Of a stretch of DNA of 64,000 nt, positions 51,773 through 55,722 are shown in pieces. The number at the start of each line of letters is the position of its first letter. Position 1 is the first letter of the stretch. Source of the stretch: Nitrosarchaeum sp. (GTDB lineage: Archaea; Thermoproteota; Nitrososphaeria; Nitrososphaerales; Nitrosopumilaceae); assembly GCF_035968265.1 (NCBI RefSeq), contig NZ_JAVYIM010000002.1, positions 248,001-312,000 on the forward strand. The letters run 5' to 3'. A program made the position numbers and the translations under genes. The notes below the pieces were generated by a model. That model ran no database searches. It was not told where the DNA came from and worked only from the letters and a program-made list of their open reading frames with translations.

Positions 51773-53815
51773 ATGGTCCTTAATCCATTTAACGTATTTG
51801 TTTTTGATCTGTTTATCATATCTGCTATTATTATTACTGCATACACATGCAATTTTTACTACCTTACATATCTCTCAATAAAACGAAAAGTAAATCACAC
51901 AACAATAGAAATGGGAACGCCTACAATTACTATTCAACTGCCAATCTATAATGAAAAATATGTTGCAAAGAGACTAGTCGATGCAGTTTGTGCGATGGAT
52001 TATCCAAAAGACAAGATGGTGATAATGGTTCTTGATGATTCTGATGATGACACTGTAGATCTTTTGTTTGATGTTGTTAATACATACAAAAAACAAGGAT
52101 TTCAAATTGAACACATTAGACGTGGTACAAGAAAGGGGTACAAAGCTGGCGCTTTGAAATATGCAATGGAGATTACTGATACCGAATTTGTAGCAATCTT
52201 TGATGCTGATTTTATTCCGCCAAACTGGTTTCTCAAAAAAGCAATACCTCATTTTGTAAAGTCAAACATTGGGCTAGTTCAATGTCGTTGGGGTCATGTA
52301 AATGAAAATTATTCTGCAATTACACAAGCGCAAGCACTCAGTCTTGATTTTCATTTTCTAATTGAACAAAAAGCAAAAAGTAATTCTAATTTATTTATGA
52401 ACTTTAATGGAACTGCAGGAATTTGGAGAACTGATTGTATATCTGATGCAGGAGGATGGCATACTGCTACACTTGTTGAAGATCTTGACTTGAGTTATAG
52501 AGCTCAAATGAAAGGCTGGAAATGTCTTTTCTTGCCCAACATTGTAGTTAATGCTGAACTACCAGCTCAAATGAATGCCGCAAAAAGACAACAGTTCCGA
52601 TGGGCAAAAGGTTCCATTCAATGTGCAATTAAGTTATTGACCGACATTGCACTAAAACGAAAAATCAGTATTGAAGCAAAAATTCAGGCATTTGTACAGC
52701 TAACTCGTCATATTGTTTATCCTTTAATGCTTATTCAGTTTCTCACATTACCTGTCCTTTTAGCTTCTAACATGAATCTCTATTTGGTTAGTTTTATTCC
52801 ATCTTTGACCATTGCTACGTATCTTGCAATGGGTCCAGGTGCATACATTATGATAATTCAAAGTATGTATCATAAATCTTGGAAATCAAAAGTGAAAATT
52901 TTGCCAGCTCTACTTGTTTACAATGCTGGAATGTCCGTCAATAACAGTGTGGCCGTATTTGATGCTATCTTTGGAAAAAAGAATGAGTTTCTAAGGACTC
53001 CTAAATATGGAATTGTTACCAAAAAAGACAACTGGAAAGGCAAGTCATACAATTTACCATTTACAAAAACAACTCTTCTTGAGATCTTTTTTGGCGTTTA
53101 TGGTCTGATGGGAATTTTAATTTCAATTTTTTCAAACAATCCTGTATTTGCCCCTATTATTGGGTTACAAACCGTCGGATTTTTCTACATCTCTTTTATG
53201 AGTCTCTCTCATACAAGTTTTAAAAGAAATAAATCACTCAACATTTCTGCTTTAACCAAGAAAGAGAAAATGGAAAAAAGAACGTATCAATTAGCAATGA
53301 TTGGAGTATTTGGAATCATAGTCTTTGGAGCGTTTATGTCAATTAACGGCTATCACTCTGATGTTTATCCTCTTGATAGAATACGTGGAAACTTGGATGG
53401 TATCATTGGTTCGGCTGATCCAGAGTCCATTAAAATTCATTTAACTGCCATTAAACAAGACCTGGCAATTGTTATGGAGAAATTACCTGAAAGTAAAAAC
53501 CCAGTTTGGGTATTTCCAACAGAATCCACAAACTTCCTCCGAATAGATCGTGATGTTGATAATATGCTTGTAACTGCTCAAACCCTTACAACCGTTTCTT
53601 CAGACAGTGCCGCATTTCAAACTGGCATGACTAACATCGGTGAACGCTCTTTATCGATTCGCCAAAATATTATGGATGCAACTCCATACCTGTTTGTCAG
53701 TATTTCTAATATTATATTTAGTACCATGTGGATAGCTGCAATTTTAGGAATATTTGCAATTCTTAAACGTAAAAAAGATCAACTAAATACATTTGATGAA
53801 GTACCAGGCGTTTAA
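51773..53815 (+). CDS. Membrane glycosyltransferase family 2 (cellulose-synthase-like)
   Basis: Processive-type glycosyltransferase. N-terminal helix (about 8-30), cytosolic GT-A domain with D88 (VLDDSDDDT), the metal DAD at 144-146, the acceptor-site E236-D237 (VEDLDLSYR) and QxxRW at 273-277, then a block of membrane helices (about 315-470) and a last helix near 650. After the core comes a soluble part of about 100 residues (540-640) between TM segments. This is the set needed to polymerise and export a polysaccharide. The sugar is unknown. The stop codon overlaps the convergent coiled-coil gene. Confidence 0.9.
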   Translation: MVLNPFNVFVFDLFIISAIIITAYTCNFYYLTYLSIKRKVNHTTIEMGTPTITIQLPIYNEKYVAKRLVDAVCAMDYPKDKMVIMVLDDSDDDTVDLLFDVVNTYKKQGFQIEHIRRGTRKGYKAGALKYAMEITDTEFVAIFDADFIPPNWFLKKAIPHFVKSNIGLVQCRWGHVNENYSAITQAQALSLDFHFLIEQKAKSNSNLFMNFNGTAGIWRTDCISDAGGWHTATLVEDLDLSYRAQMKGWKCLFLPNIVVNAELPAQMNAAKRQQFRWAKGSIQCAIKLLTDIALKRKISIEAKIQAFVQLTRHIVYPLMLIQFLTLPVLLASNMNLYLVSFIPSLTIATYLAMGPGAYIMIIQSMYHKSWKSKVKILPALLVYNAGMSVNNSVAVFDAIFGKKNEFLRTPKYGIVTKKDNWKGKSYNLPFTKTTLLEIFFGVYGLMGILISIFSNNPVFAPIIGLQTVGFFYISFMSLSHTSFKRNKSLNISALTKKEKMEKRTYQLAMIGVFGIIVFGAFMSINGYHSDVYPLDRIRGNLDGIIGSADPESIKIHLTAIKQDLAIVMEKLPESKNPVWVFPTESTNFLRIDRDVDNMLVTAQTLTTVSSDSAAFQTGMTNIGERSLSIRQNIMDATPYLFVSISNIIFSTMWIAAILGIFAILKRKKDQLNTFDEVPGV

Positions 53816-55320
53816 GAAATATTTAATTCAGTTCTAATTTCGTCTACTGCTCTAATTCCGTAAATGTCTCTGATTTGTTGAATTCTAATTGATTCTTTTA
53901 GTAGATCTCTGCCAATTGCATTTGTTAGAATAGTAAAGATATCGCTAAATCTTACTTCCCATTTATCTGCACAATCTAAAATCTTACTTACTGCCCACTG
54001 TCTTACTTCGTGTGGTAATGGAATCTTTTCTCCTGCTTCTATTGACAATCTATCGAATAAATTGATTATCTCTGCAGTTTGAGCTGCCATGTTCTCAAGA
54101 TCTTTTGAATCACCATACTTTGATTCTGCATGCATTCGGATGTTTGATTGATATTCTGACAGCTTTAGTAATGCCATCACCTCTTTTGATGATTCACTAG
54201 ATGCTTTACTTGTAGTACTTTTTACCTGTTGCATTTCTTCAAAAATCTTATCTGATTTTTTATGAAACTCTGCTGTTGATGCGTCTTGCCGTTTTAAAAT
54301 ATCTGAGACTGAAGAAATTTTTTGCTCTATTTTGTCTGTCTTTTCAAAAACATTCTTTTTGAAATTTGAAAAATCTTCTTGGACTGATTTTAATCCCTCT
54401 CCTACAAACGCCGTAGAATCAGCTCTATGCGATAATGAGTTAATTTCTGTCTCAATTTTATCTATTTTTCCAGATATGCTTTTAATGGAATTTATGCTCA
54501 AATTAGACGCAGAATCGGCATTTCCTGCAATAGTGGTGAATTGTTGCTTTAATCCCTCGATGACTCCTCCCAAAGAATCAATTTTTGCAGCTTTGCCTGC
54601 AACTGCATCAATTGCAATTTTAATTGCATCTAACTCTGTTCTAAGTTTTGATGCAGAATTTACATCATCTTTTATTTTTCCCAACTCTTGATTCAAGCTG
54701 GATATCACTTGTGATGACACATCTACATTTCCAGTCTTTTTGGTTACTTCCTCAATACTGTTTTTTAGATTGTCAATTTCATTGCCAATGTTTGATAATG
54801 AATCTGTTTTTCCAGCTACTTTTCTAAGATCGTCTCTTACTTCATCAATTCTTTGTGCAATTTTTATTATCATCTGTGAATTATTTCTCATCGAATTCAT
54901 GCTGTCTTCTACTTGCTGGGCTAACTCTAGAGTTTTTGGAGATGATTTTTGTAATTCATTTATTTTGTGTACTTCTTCTTGGAGTCTAACTGTCTGCTCG
55001 TTAATTTTTGTAACTATGTTTGCTTGAGTTCTTACCTGATTTAGTCCTGCGAAAAGTTTCTGTGTATCGTCTTCTAAAATGTTGATTTGCTTTGACTGTT
55101 TTTGTATGTTTTCTAGTGTCTGTGCTAAAGTATCAATCATGCCTTTCATTGATACAAGTACCTTTTGGTTATCGCCAAAAATTTTTGACATTACTTTGAT
55201 TTCTTTTTGTAATGCTTTGCTAGAATCTGTCACTGACGCTACTTTCTTTAAGATTGCCGCTGGCGTTGGTTCATGTTTTACAGCTTTTTTCGAAACTTTA
55301 TCTGCTTTCTTTGCAGCCAT
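53812..55320 (-). CDS. Large coiled-coil protein, about 502 aa
   Basis: Almost the whole protein (about 30-380) is heptad-repeat coiled coil rich in Ser, Lys, Asp and Asn, with repeated units such as KTGNVDVSSQVISSLNQELG and AGKAAKIDSLGGVIEGLKQQ. The last 120 residues (from LLKLSEYQSNIRMHAESKYG) look folded and helical. The N-terminus is Lys/Ala-rich (AAKKADKVSKKAVKHEP). No transmembrane helix. A scaffold, or a structural-maintenance-like role, is possible but not shown. ATG at 55320 is preferred over one four codons upstream. Confidence 0.7.
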   Translation of the reverse strand: MAAKKADKVSKKAVKHEPTPAAILKKVASVTDSSKALQKEIKVMSKIFGDNQKVLVSMKGMIDTLAQTLENIQKQSKQINILEDDTQKLFAGLNQVRTQANIVTKINEQTVRLQEEVHKINELQKSSPKTLELAQQVEDSMNSMRNNSQMIIKIAQRIDEVRDDLRKVAGKTDSLSNIGNEIDNLKNSIEEVTKKTGNVDVSSQVISSLNQELGKIKDDVNSASKLRTELDAIKIAIDAVAGKAAKIDSLGGVIEGLKQQFTTIAGNADSASNLSINSIKSISGKIDKIETEINSLSHRADSTAFVGEGLKSVQEDFSNFKKNVFEKTDKIEQKISSVSDILKRQDASTAEFHKKSDKIFEEMQQVKSTTSKASSESSKEVMALLKLSEYQSNIRMHAESKYGDSKDLENMAAQTAEIINLFDRLSIEAGEKIPLPHEVRQWAVSKILDCADKWEVRFSDIFTILTNAIGRDLLKESIRIQQIRDIYGIRAVDEIRTELNIS

Positions 55321-55381
55321 ATCACTTAACATTGCAATATGATGTTAAAAAAGTTAGGTGTAAAATAAAAAATGTAATGAG

Positions 55382-55489
55382 TTACTTGTTGACAACTTCT
55401 GGCTCATGTAGTAACTCATGAAATGTTTTTTCTGCTAGCCCATTTGAAGTCTCGATAAACCCTCTTGGGCAATATTCACATTGAATCAT
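55382..55489 (-). CDS. Small CxxC protein, 35 aa
   Basis: An ATG frame of 35 codons starting MIQCEYCPRGFIETSNGL. One CxxC (C4, C7) sits at the very N-terminus, followed by a mixed helix with two histidines (KTFHELLHEPE) that could complete a zinc site. Too short for ordinary gene calling, but it has a strong promoter context: TATA-like ATTAATA at 55512-55518 (minus), and a perfect dyad immediately before the ATG (separate entry). Confidence 0.5.
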   Translation of the reverse strand: MIQCEYCPRGFIETSNGLAEKTFHELLHEPEVVNK

Positions 55490-55722
55490 ACAGTACGGTA
55501 TGGTACCGTACTATTAATGCTTGGGTAATTGTGATGTTACCAATTATGCAGTCAGATACCCCAGGTCATTTTTCTACATTATTTTCAGTTGACCTACTCA
55601 TCATTCTGCAATTAGACTAATGAACATTAAGCATAAAGAGGTTCAAAACATAACCAATTAAAAAAATATTTTTGAATTCAATGAATCTTTTTTGTTGTAT
55701 GCGCAACTGTTTTTAAACAAAT
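55490..55722. other. Intergenic region before the antiporter
   Basis: Apart from the dyad above, this stretch holds nothing clear. A 28-codon frame from 55534 has no supporting feature. TTTTTAAAC at 55710-55718 is the antiporter TATA box. Confidence 0.55.
55492..55512 (-). promoter_or_regulatory. Perfect 9+9 dyad operator candidate
   Basis: AGTACGGTA (55492-55500) and TACCGTACT (55504-55512) are exact inverted copies around a TGG spacer. On the minus strand the dyad sits 3-23 bases before the 35-aa ORF start and touches the TATA-like box, so a bound dimer would block the promoter. No second copy was noticed in the window. Confidence 0.6.

Follow-up and report, generated by a model that had tools for sequence, protein, structure and literature searches.

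An exact inverted repeat in front of a 35-codon open reading frame of a Nitrosarchaeum species raises the question of whether the repeat is a regulatory site, whether the short frame is a gene, and which other genes such a site may control. The window, that is the whole 64,000-nucleotide stretch of DNA that was analysed, corresponds to G000:C2:248001-312000 in a genome of 1.53 Mb (G000 being the organism's own genome). An initial annotation of this DNA had described a 9+9 dyad around TGG between a TATA-like box and the ATG of a CxxC protein, and our analysis located the dyad AGTACGGTA-TGG-TACCGTACT as described at window positions 55492-55512, in a single copy within the window even when up to three mismatches were allowed. 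Reading along the minus strand, the TATA-like ATTAAT (55513-55518) is followed by the dyad, the dinucleotide GT and the ATG. The features of the locus are as follows:

55382..55489, minus strand: zf35, gene of a 35-aa microprotein (ORF, orthologues, pN/pS 0.054)
55492..55512, no strand: operator-like dyad of 21 bp (sequence, mismatch search, shuffles)
55494..55510, no strand: conserved 17-bp core TACSGTA-N3-TACSGTA, two self-palindromic half-sites at 10 bp spacing
55513..55518, minus strand: TATA-like box ATTAAT (replaced by TATTAATA in most relatives), some 26 nt 5' of the ATG (sequence)
55524..55541, no strand: second inverted repeat GGTAA-N8-TTACC, 5' of the zf35 TATA box
55362..55372, minus strand: T-rich stretch TTTTTTATTTT 3' of zf35, a possible terminator ahead of the next gene (sequence)

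The zf35 gene and the site in front of it

The zf35 frame comprises 35 codons and a stop and encodes MIQCEYCPRGFIETSNGLAEKTFHELLHEPEVVNK. Among 121 relatives, a six-frame protein search recovered it from 65, every one of which belongs to the same family: 65 of 73 genomes inside the family, its own counted, have the gene, against 0 of 48 outside. Pooled pN/pS was 0.054 over 22 distinct sequences of the genus and its closest relatives, a value indicative of strong purifying selection. Together these orthologues and this ratio ruled out the reading of the frame as noise, and the initial annotation was right to regard it as a real gene.

Among 63 distinct coding sequences (L067, L068, L070 and L071 left out of the count), M1, C4, C7, F11, G17, K21, H24 and N34 were invariant and H28 was present in 62. 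The resulting Cys/His pattern, C-x2-C-x16-H-x3-H, is zinc-finger-like with a conserved two-Cys/two-His order, from which we infer zinc binding. This order is common to C2H2 zinc fingers, in which the linker is usually 12 residues, whereas that of zf35 is longer with 16 residues. No Pfam or NCBIfam model matched zf35 above its cut-off, including the Pfam zf-C2H2-type zinc-finger model, the best Pfam match being Fer2_2 at an E-value of 0.12 and below its cut-off; a structure model built from the single sequence (pTM 0.36) was too poor to interpret. Zinc-finger microproteins are represented in archaea by the Haloferax C(P)XCG proteins (PMC6562870, PMC10716476) and by Brz (PMC2253796), which in the parts of these papers available to us are, like zf35, shorter than 70 residues with one predicted zinc site. 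The haloarchaeal C(P)XCG proteins carry two C(P)XCG motifs, whereas zf35 has one CEYC and no CXCG.

Taken alone, the 9+9 dyad is at chance level and weak evidence, as one perfect dyad with a 3-nt loop was found in the window against a mean of 0.65 in mononucleotide shuffles (n=20). A chance dyad was ruled out by conservation and not by window statistics. In pairwise comparison of 17 same-genus zf35 loci, half-site positions were 98% identical versus 73% at positions -60 to -54 and 75% at third codon positions, and it is because of this conservation at the half-sites, and of the recurrence at the same genes across genera, that the dyad is considered significant. Thus the proposal that a regulatory site lies in repressor position was borne out, the dyad being conserved and operator-like, and neither an unconserved dyad nor non-synonymous drift of the ORF, the two outcomes that the initial annotation had set against its own reading, was seen.

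Of 68 zf35 loci fetched, one (L067) was dropped as lacking a start, and in 62 of the remaining 67 the interval from the TATA-like box to the ATG holds a TACSGTA-N3-TACSGTA site with 13 or all 14 positions matching; no mononucleotide shuffle (20 for each locus) scored above 11. The central bases of the two halves in these 62 sites were GC in 34, CC in 11, CG in 7, GG in 6 and other in 4. Because the central base flips between C and G among genomes, each half is a palindrome in itself, and the site would be better described as two palindromic TAC-S-GTA half-sites 10 bp (one helical turn) apart than as one 9+9 dyad. The inverted repeat of the initial annotation is exact, and its interpretation as a single dyad gives way to that of paired half-sites.

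Several further elements surround zf35. The second inverted repeat, GGTAA-N8-TTACC, lies between a C/D-box element and the zf35 TATA box and matched at no fewer than 9 of 10 positions in 49 of 67 zf35 loci, in all cases at -53/-52. It has one exact place in the organism's own genome and 14 places with at most one mismatch compared to 15 for the control, and these control-level counts ruled out a separate regulon for that genome; the repeat is evidently a local conserved element of zf35. Four of 64 radA loci have it as well, and one zf35 locus (L033, G030) carries several tandem copies. The C/D-box sRNA-like element (window 55547-55610, minus strand) is directly 5' of the zf35 promoter and shows boxes C, D', C' and D with a 5-bp terminal stem; its D-guide GGGGUAU and box D are kept 5' of zf35 in 43 of 67 loci, and Rfam returned no match above gathering cut-offs on the zf35 locus, this element included. 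On the other side, a gene for a 506-aa coiled-coil-like protein (window 53812-55332, minus strand) follows zf35 with the T-rich stretch between them, and 56 of 67 loci show this same-strand order.

Four genes that share the site in Nitrosopumilaceae

The search of the genome and its relatives that the initial annotation had proposed, with the neighbours of each copy listed, returned four recurrent genes and an exact motif in 141 of 151 family genomes. In the organism's own genome there are three exact places and one with a single mismatch (plus an overlapping register), solely at these four genes, and 0 for the reversed control. Across the family, 412 exact sites were counted versus 10 for the reversed pattern, where composition would give about 0.02 exact sites per genome; sites per genome were few, five at most, and 0 of 48 genomes from other families had the exact motif. 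Among the 75 exact sites listed, from 26 genomes, 74 were at the four genes (zf35 25, winged-helix gene 19, radA 15, small64 15), and five genomes from five other genera had all 15 of their exact sites at the same four genes, with extra one-mismatch places at control level (control 1 to 7 per genome). The odd one out of the 75 is a lone exact site in G019 (L173, G019:C17:24260) that is 5' of a 43-aa ORF, MPTNLKKTSLYLTKEQTEFLNHNCISLSKFVRKNIEQLMEIKN, which by eye looks like a ribbon-helix-helix protein. The motif is thus conserved at zf35 but is not a site of zf35 alone.

Of the three other genes, radA was identified by matches to TIGR02236 and PRK04301. The winged-helix gene (G000:C3:12668-13012) encodes a 115-aa protein found in 60 of 121 relatives, with strong matches in the family only, and the protein is 100% identical to one of a Nitrosarchaeum MAG (L278); in 63 of 80 named loci the next gene on the same strand resembles those of PAC2 proteasome assembly chaperones, whereas 17 gave no match within the DNA covered. 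The small64 gene encodes a 62-aa protein with a CxxC...CxxH arrangement, was found in 56 of 121 relatives and is divergent from trpE in the organism's own genome. One radA locus (L260, G008) is interrupted, in that the ORF beginning at the operator-bearing start stops after 92 codons, and the remainder of the match, from residue 74 on, is found further downstream.

Promoters with at least 13 of 14 matching positions numbered 62 of 67 for zf35, 53 of 56 for the winged-helix gene, 53 of 64 for radA and 27 of 30 for small64, leaving 5, 3, 11 and 3 promoters, respectively, below this value. The radA set took in 64 of 69 family matches, and the small64 set 30 of 56 genomes. The 56 winged-helix promoters derive from 56 of 60 genomes plus one G122 locus, with L222 dropped as it begins inside the gene; the four genomes outside this set (G009, G019, G027 and G030) each had an exact site at the winged-helix gene. 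Mononucleotide shuffles of the zf35, winged-helix and radA promoter sets never scored above 12. The shared site suggests that zf35, the winged-helix gene, radA and small64 form a regulon.

The layout of these promoters is similar for three of the four genes. In front of zf35, radA and the winged-helix gene, the site is placed between the TATA box (TATTAATA, TTATAAAG, TTAATAAGG) and the start, and in 38 of 53 radA and 32 of 53 winged-helix promoters, from the set with at least 13 of 14 positions, the motif ends on the A of the ATG. A TATA-to-ATG distance of about 26 nt is that of a leaderless transcript, and the distances here suggest that the transcripts are leaderless. The small64 site adjoins the BRE immediately 5' of CCTTTATAT, with the ATG approximately 26 nt further on. 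In many winged-helix promoters a third, degenerate half-site (AAGGTAA) stands in 10-bp register, which might fit an autoregulator.

A position so close to the TATA box and the start codon could also be expected of a sequence-specific core promoter or initiator element that is no regulator's operator. We consider this highly improbable, as the small64 site is 5' and not 3' of the TATA box, the number of sites per genome is so low and the motif is absent from other families in the order. Alternatively, the site on the small64 side may be an operator of trpE; against this, an exact site in G027 (L178) has stayed with a small64-like ORF whose neighbour differs, and the spacing from TATA box to ATG suits small64. 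In genus g13 (L168, L171, L172 and L167) a strongly conserved GGAG-CTGAGGATCCCAAAATGGAGGGGCATAACTGGGC stretch follows the operator on the trpE side, between small64 and trpE, and may be a trp leader or some other regulatory element.

The winged-helix protein as candidate binder

The dyad is probably the operator of a small and ancient regulon of archaea of the Nitrosopumilaceae type, in which an autoregulated winged-helix dimer would repress its own gene, radA and zf35. Our comparison of 73 family genomes showed the exact motif in all 60 with the winged-helix gene and in 6 of 13 without it, these six being no more than 79% complete. At a completeness of at least 80%, 55 genomes had both the gene and the exact motif, six had neither and none was discordant, a co-occurrence that amounts to about three clades and not to six independent losses. 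Absence of the gene in G018 and G039 is real because these are single-contig genomes.

Alternatively, the regulon may be real and its binder another protein, either zf35 itself, as a C2H2-like autoregulator, or a further factor, with the winged-helix gene as a mere target. We regard this as unlikely. The zinc-finger-like Cys/His pattern would suit zf35 for such a role, and a small zinc-finger regulator, Brz, is known in haloarchaea according to the part of its description available to us (PMC2253796). However, the perfect tracking of the exact motif in the more complete genomes is with the winged-helix gene and not with zf35 or small64, and one finger of 35 residues would be unlikely to read 17 bp alone. 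zf35 persists without an exact motif in four genomes (G018, G039, G045 and G063), which speaks against it as the binder; a motif was also present in G036 (90% complete) where zf35 was not found, and small64 presence tracks the motif less well than does the winged-helix gene. In favour of another binder, genomes that lack the winged-helix gene still have partial sites at radA (13 of 14 positions in G018, 12 in G031 and G048, 11 in G039, 10 in G063 and 9 in G045), so that a second binder or slow decay has to be assumed. Conversely, the radA site is lost or weakened in five genomes with the winged-helix gene (8/14 in G055, 9/14 in G029, 11/14 in G047, and 12/14 in G019 and G027), and in G157 the gene is present and no exact motif was found. 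In G009 the winged-helix gene is seemingly broken by a TAA (two partial matches, G009:C7:126910-127253), and exact sites stay at all four genes.

The structure of the winged-helix protein is consistent with DNA binding. In the AlphaFold2 model, residues 39-112 form a winged helix, with block pLDDT values of about 87-94 as far as residue 110, and the nearest solved folds were the DNA-binding winged helices AspA, RosR, PadR, MarR, ArsR and Sso10a (Foldseek E about 1e-3; VIA Z about 9-10.5). PadR/MarR/ArsR-type winged-helix regulators act as dimers on palindromes. The candidate shares their fold and that of RosR, Sso10a and AspA over the modelled residues, but its N-terminal 38 residues, modelled with low confidence as was the dimerisation part, do not confidently resemble any of the matches listed. 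The initial annotation had named DtxR, MarR or Lrp-type proteins as binders; MarR was listed together with PadR, ArsR and RosR, and DtxR and Lrp were not among the fold matches listed. By sequence, no Pfam family matched above its cut-off (best 17.4 bits or E about 1e-3), nor did any PadR, MarR or ArsR family model, and a search of PDB sequences with the winged-helix profile gave weak matches only, the best being glycogen phosphorylase (E 0.03, plainly chance), with AspA at 0.17. Cys80, at the end of the modelled recognition helix, is invariant, and a redox or metal switch through this residue is possible.

Proposed control of radA and comparison with known systems

In the preferred reading of a winged-helix repressor, the dimeric 115-aa protein would bind the paired TAC-S-GTA half-sites on one helix face, and its occupancy between TATA box and start would exclude polymerase at zf35, radA and the winged-helix gene, with its own promoter among the targets making it an autorepressor. 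Some archaeal factors repress or activate according to where they bind, and at small64, where the site is on the BRE, the protein may repress by blocking TFB or may activate. A signal that lifts this repression, for which stress in recombination or replication is the most plausible candidate, would then raise RadA together with two small zinc-finger-like proteins. Such stress is the leading guess because radA is the sole understood target, and for the same reason recombination or repair is favoured over the metal or redox state that the initial annotation had put forward.

A DNA-damage, SOS-like trigger would be an attractive possibility. Like the bacterial LexA-RecA system, the present one would be a small autoregulated set with operators on core promoters and a RecA-family recombinase as its only clearly known effector; the recombinase gene radA carries the operator, as does the regulator's own gene if the winged-helix protein is the regulator. 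The likeness ends with the regulator and the size of the set: LexA joins an HTH to an S24 self-cleaving peptidase, whereas the candidate is a lone 115-aa winged helix that matched no LexA or peptidase model, and only four genes are involved here, two of them for microproteins. Since the candidate matched no LexA model, the four-gene regulon is not a member of the LexA system, though it appears to be SOS-type in layout. In its strongest form, this would be a LexA-free archaeal regulon of nearly all Nitrosopumilaceae, in which a winged-helix repressor released by damage or recombination co-induces its own gene, radA and the genes of two zinc microproteins acting as modulators of RadA, and we offer it tentatively, as a possibility that is rather doubtful.

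Alternatively, the regulon may serve cell-cycle or growth-phase timing, with the recombinase made during replication and not upon damage or stress, a reading that we hold to be possible but not probable. That radA is the sole target of known function is compatible with timing, and in the available part of one study RadA expression was periodic in the Sulfolobus cell cycle and UV did not raise radA in S. solfataricus (PMC2246294). Against timing, 0 replication or division genes were found among the 74 assigned sites, and radA1 of Halobacterium was induced after UV, as given in the accessible text of PMC5626843. According to the portions of these two papers available to us, archaea have few or no coordinated regulons induced by damage (PMC5626843, PMC2246294), and in halophiles one is considered absent, though radA1 is UV-induced there (PMC5626843).

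An Orc1-2-centred DNA damage response is described for Sulfolobales, where the ups, ced and tfb3 genes share a motif through which Orc1-2 controls them (PMC10470591), and it likewise ties an archaeal transcription factor and a promoter motif to genes of DNA repair and exchange. As far as the portion of that paper available to us extends, it differs in factor, lineage and gene set (ups, ced, tfb3, dpo2 and the herA operon), showed no overlap on reading, and had 0 occurrences of radA. Our literature search found no paper on the motif, the regulator or a radA regulon in ammonia-oxidizing archaea, and the part of PMC7554672 available to us held nothing on the motif or regulator.

In summary, the regulon is apparently undescribed and lies in a major archaeal family, Nitrosopumilaceae, whose members are among the most abundant archaea of the sea, and control of recombination in ammonia-oxidizing archaea seems to be undescribed in the literature searched. 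ORFs of 35 and 62 codons, which annotation pipelines may miss, are here conserved genes with operator-like sites. The four genes with their defined operators, the candidate regulator and the link of two microproteins to radA make the question of how these archaea may control recombination directly testable.
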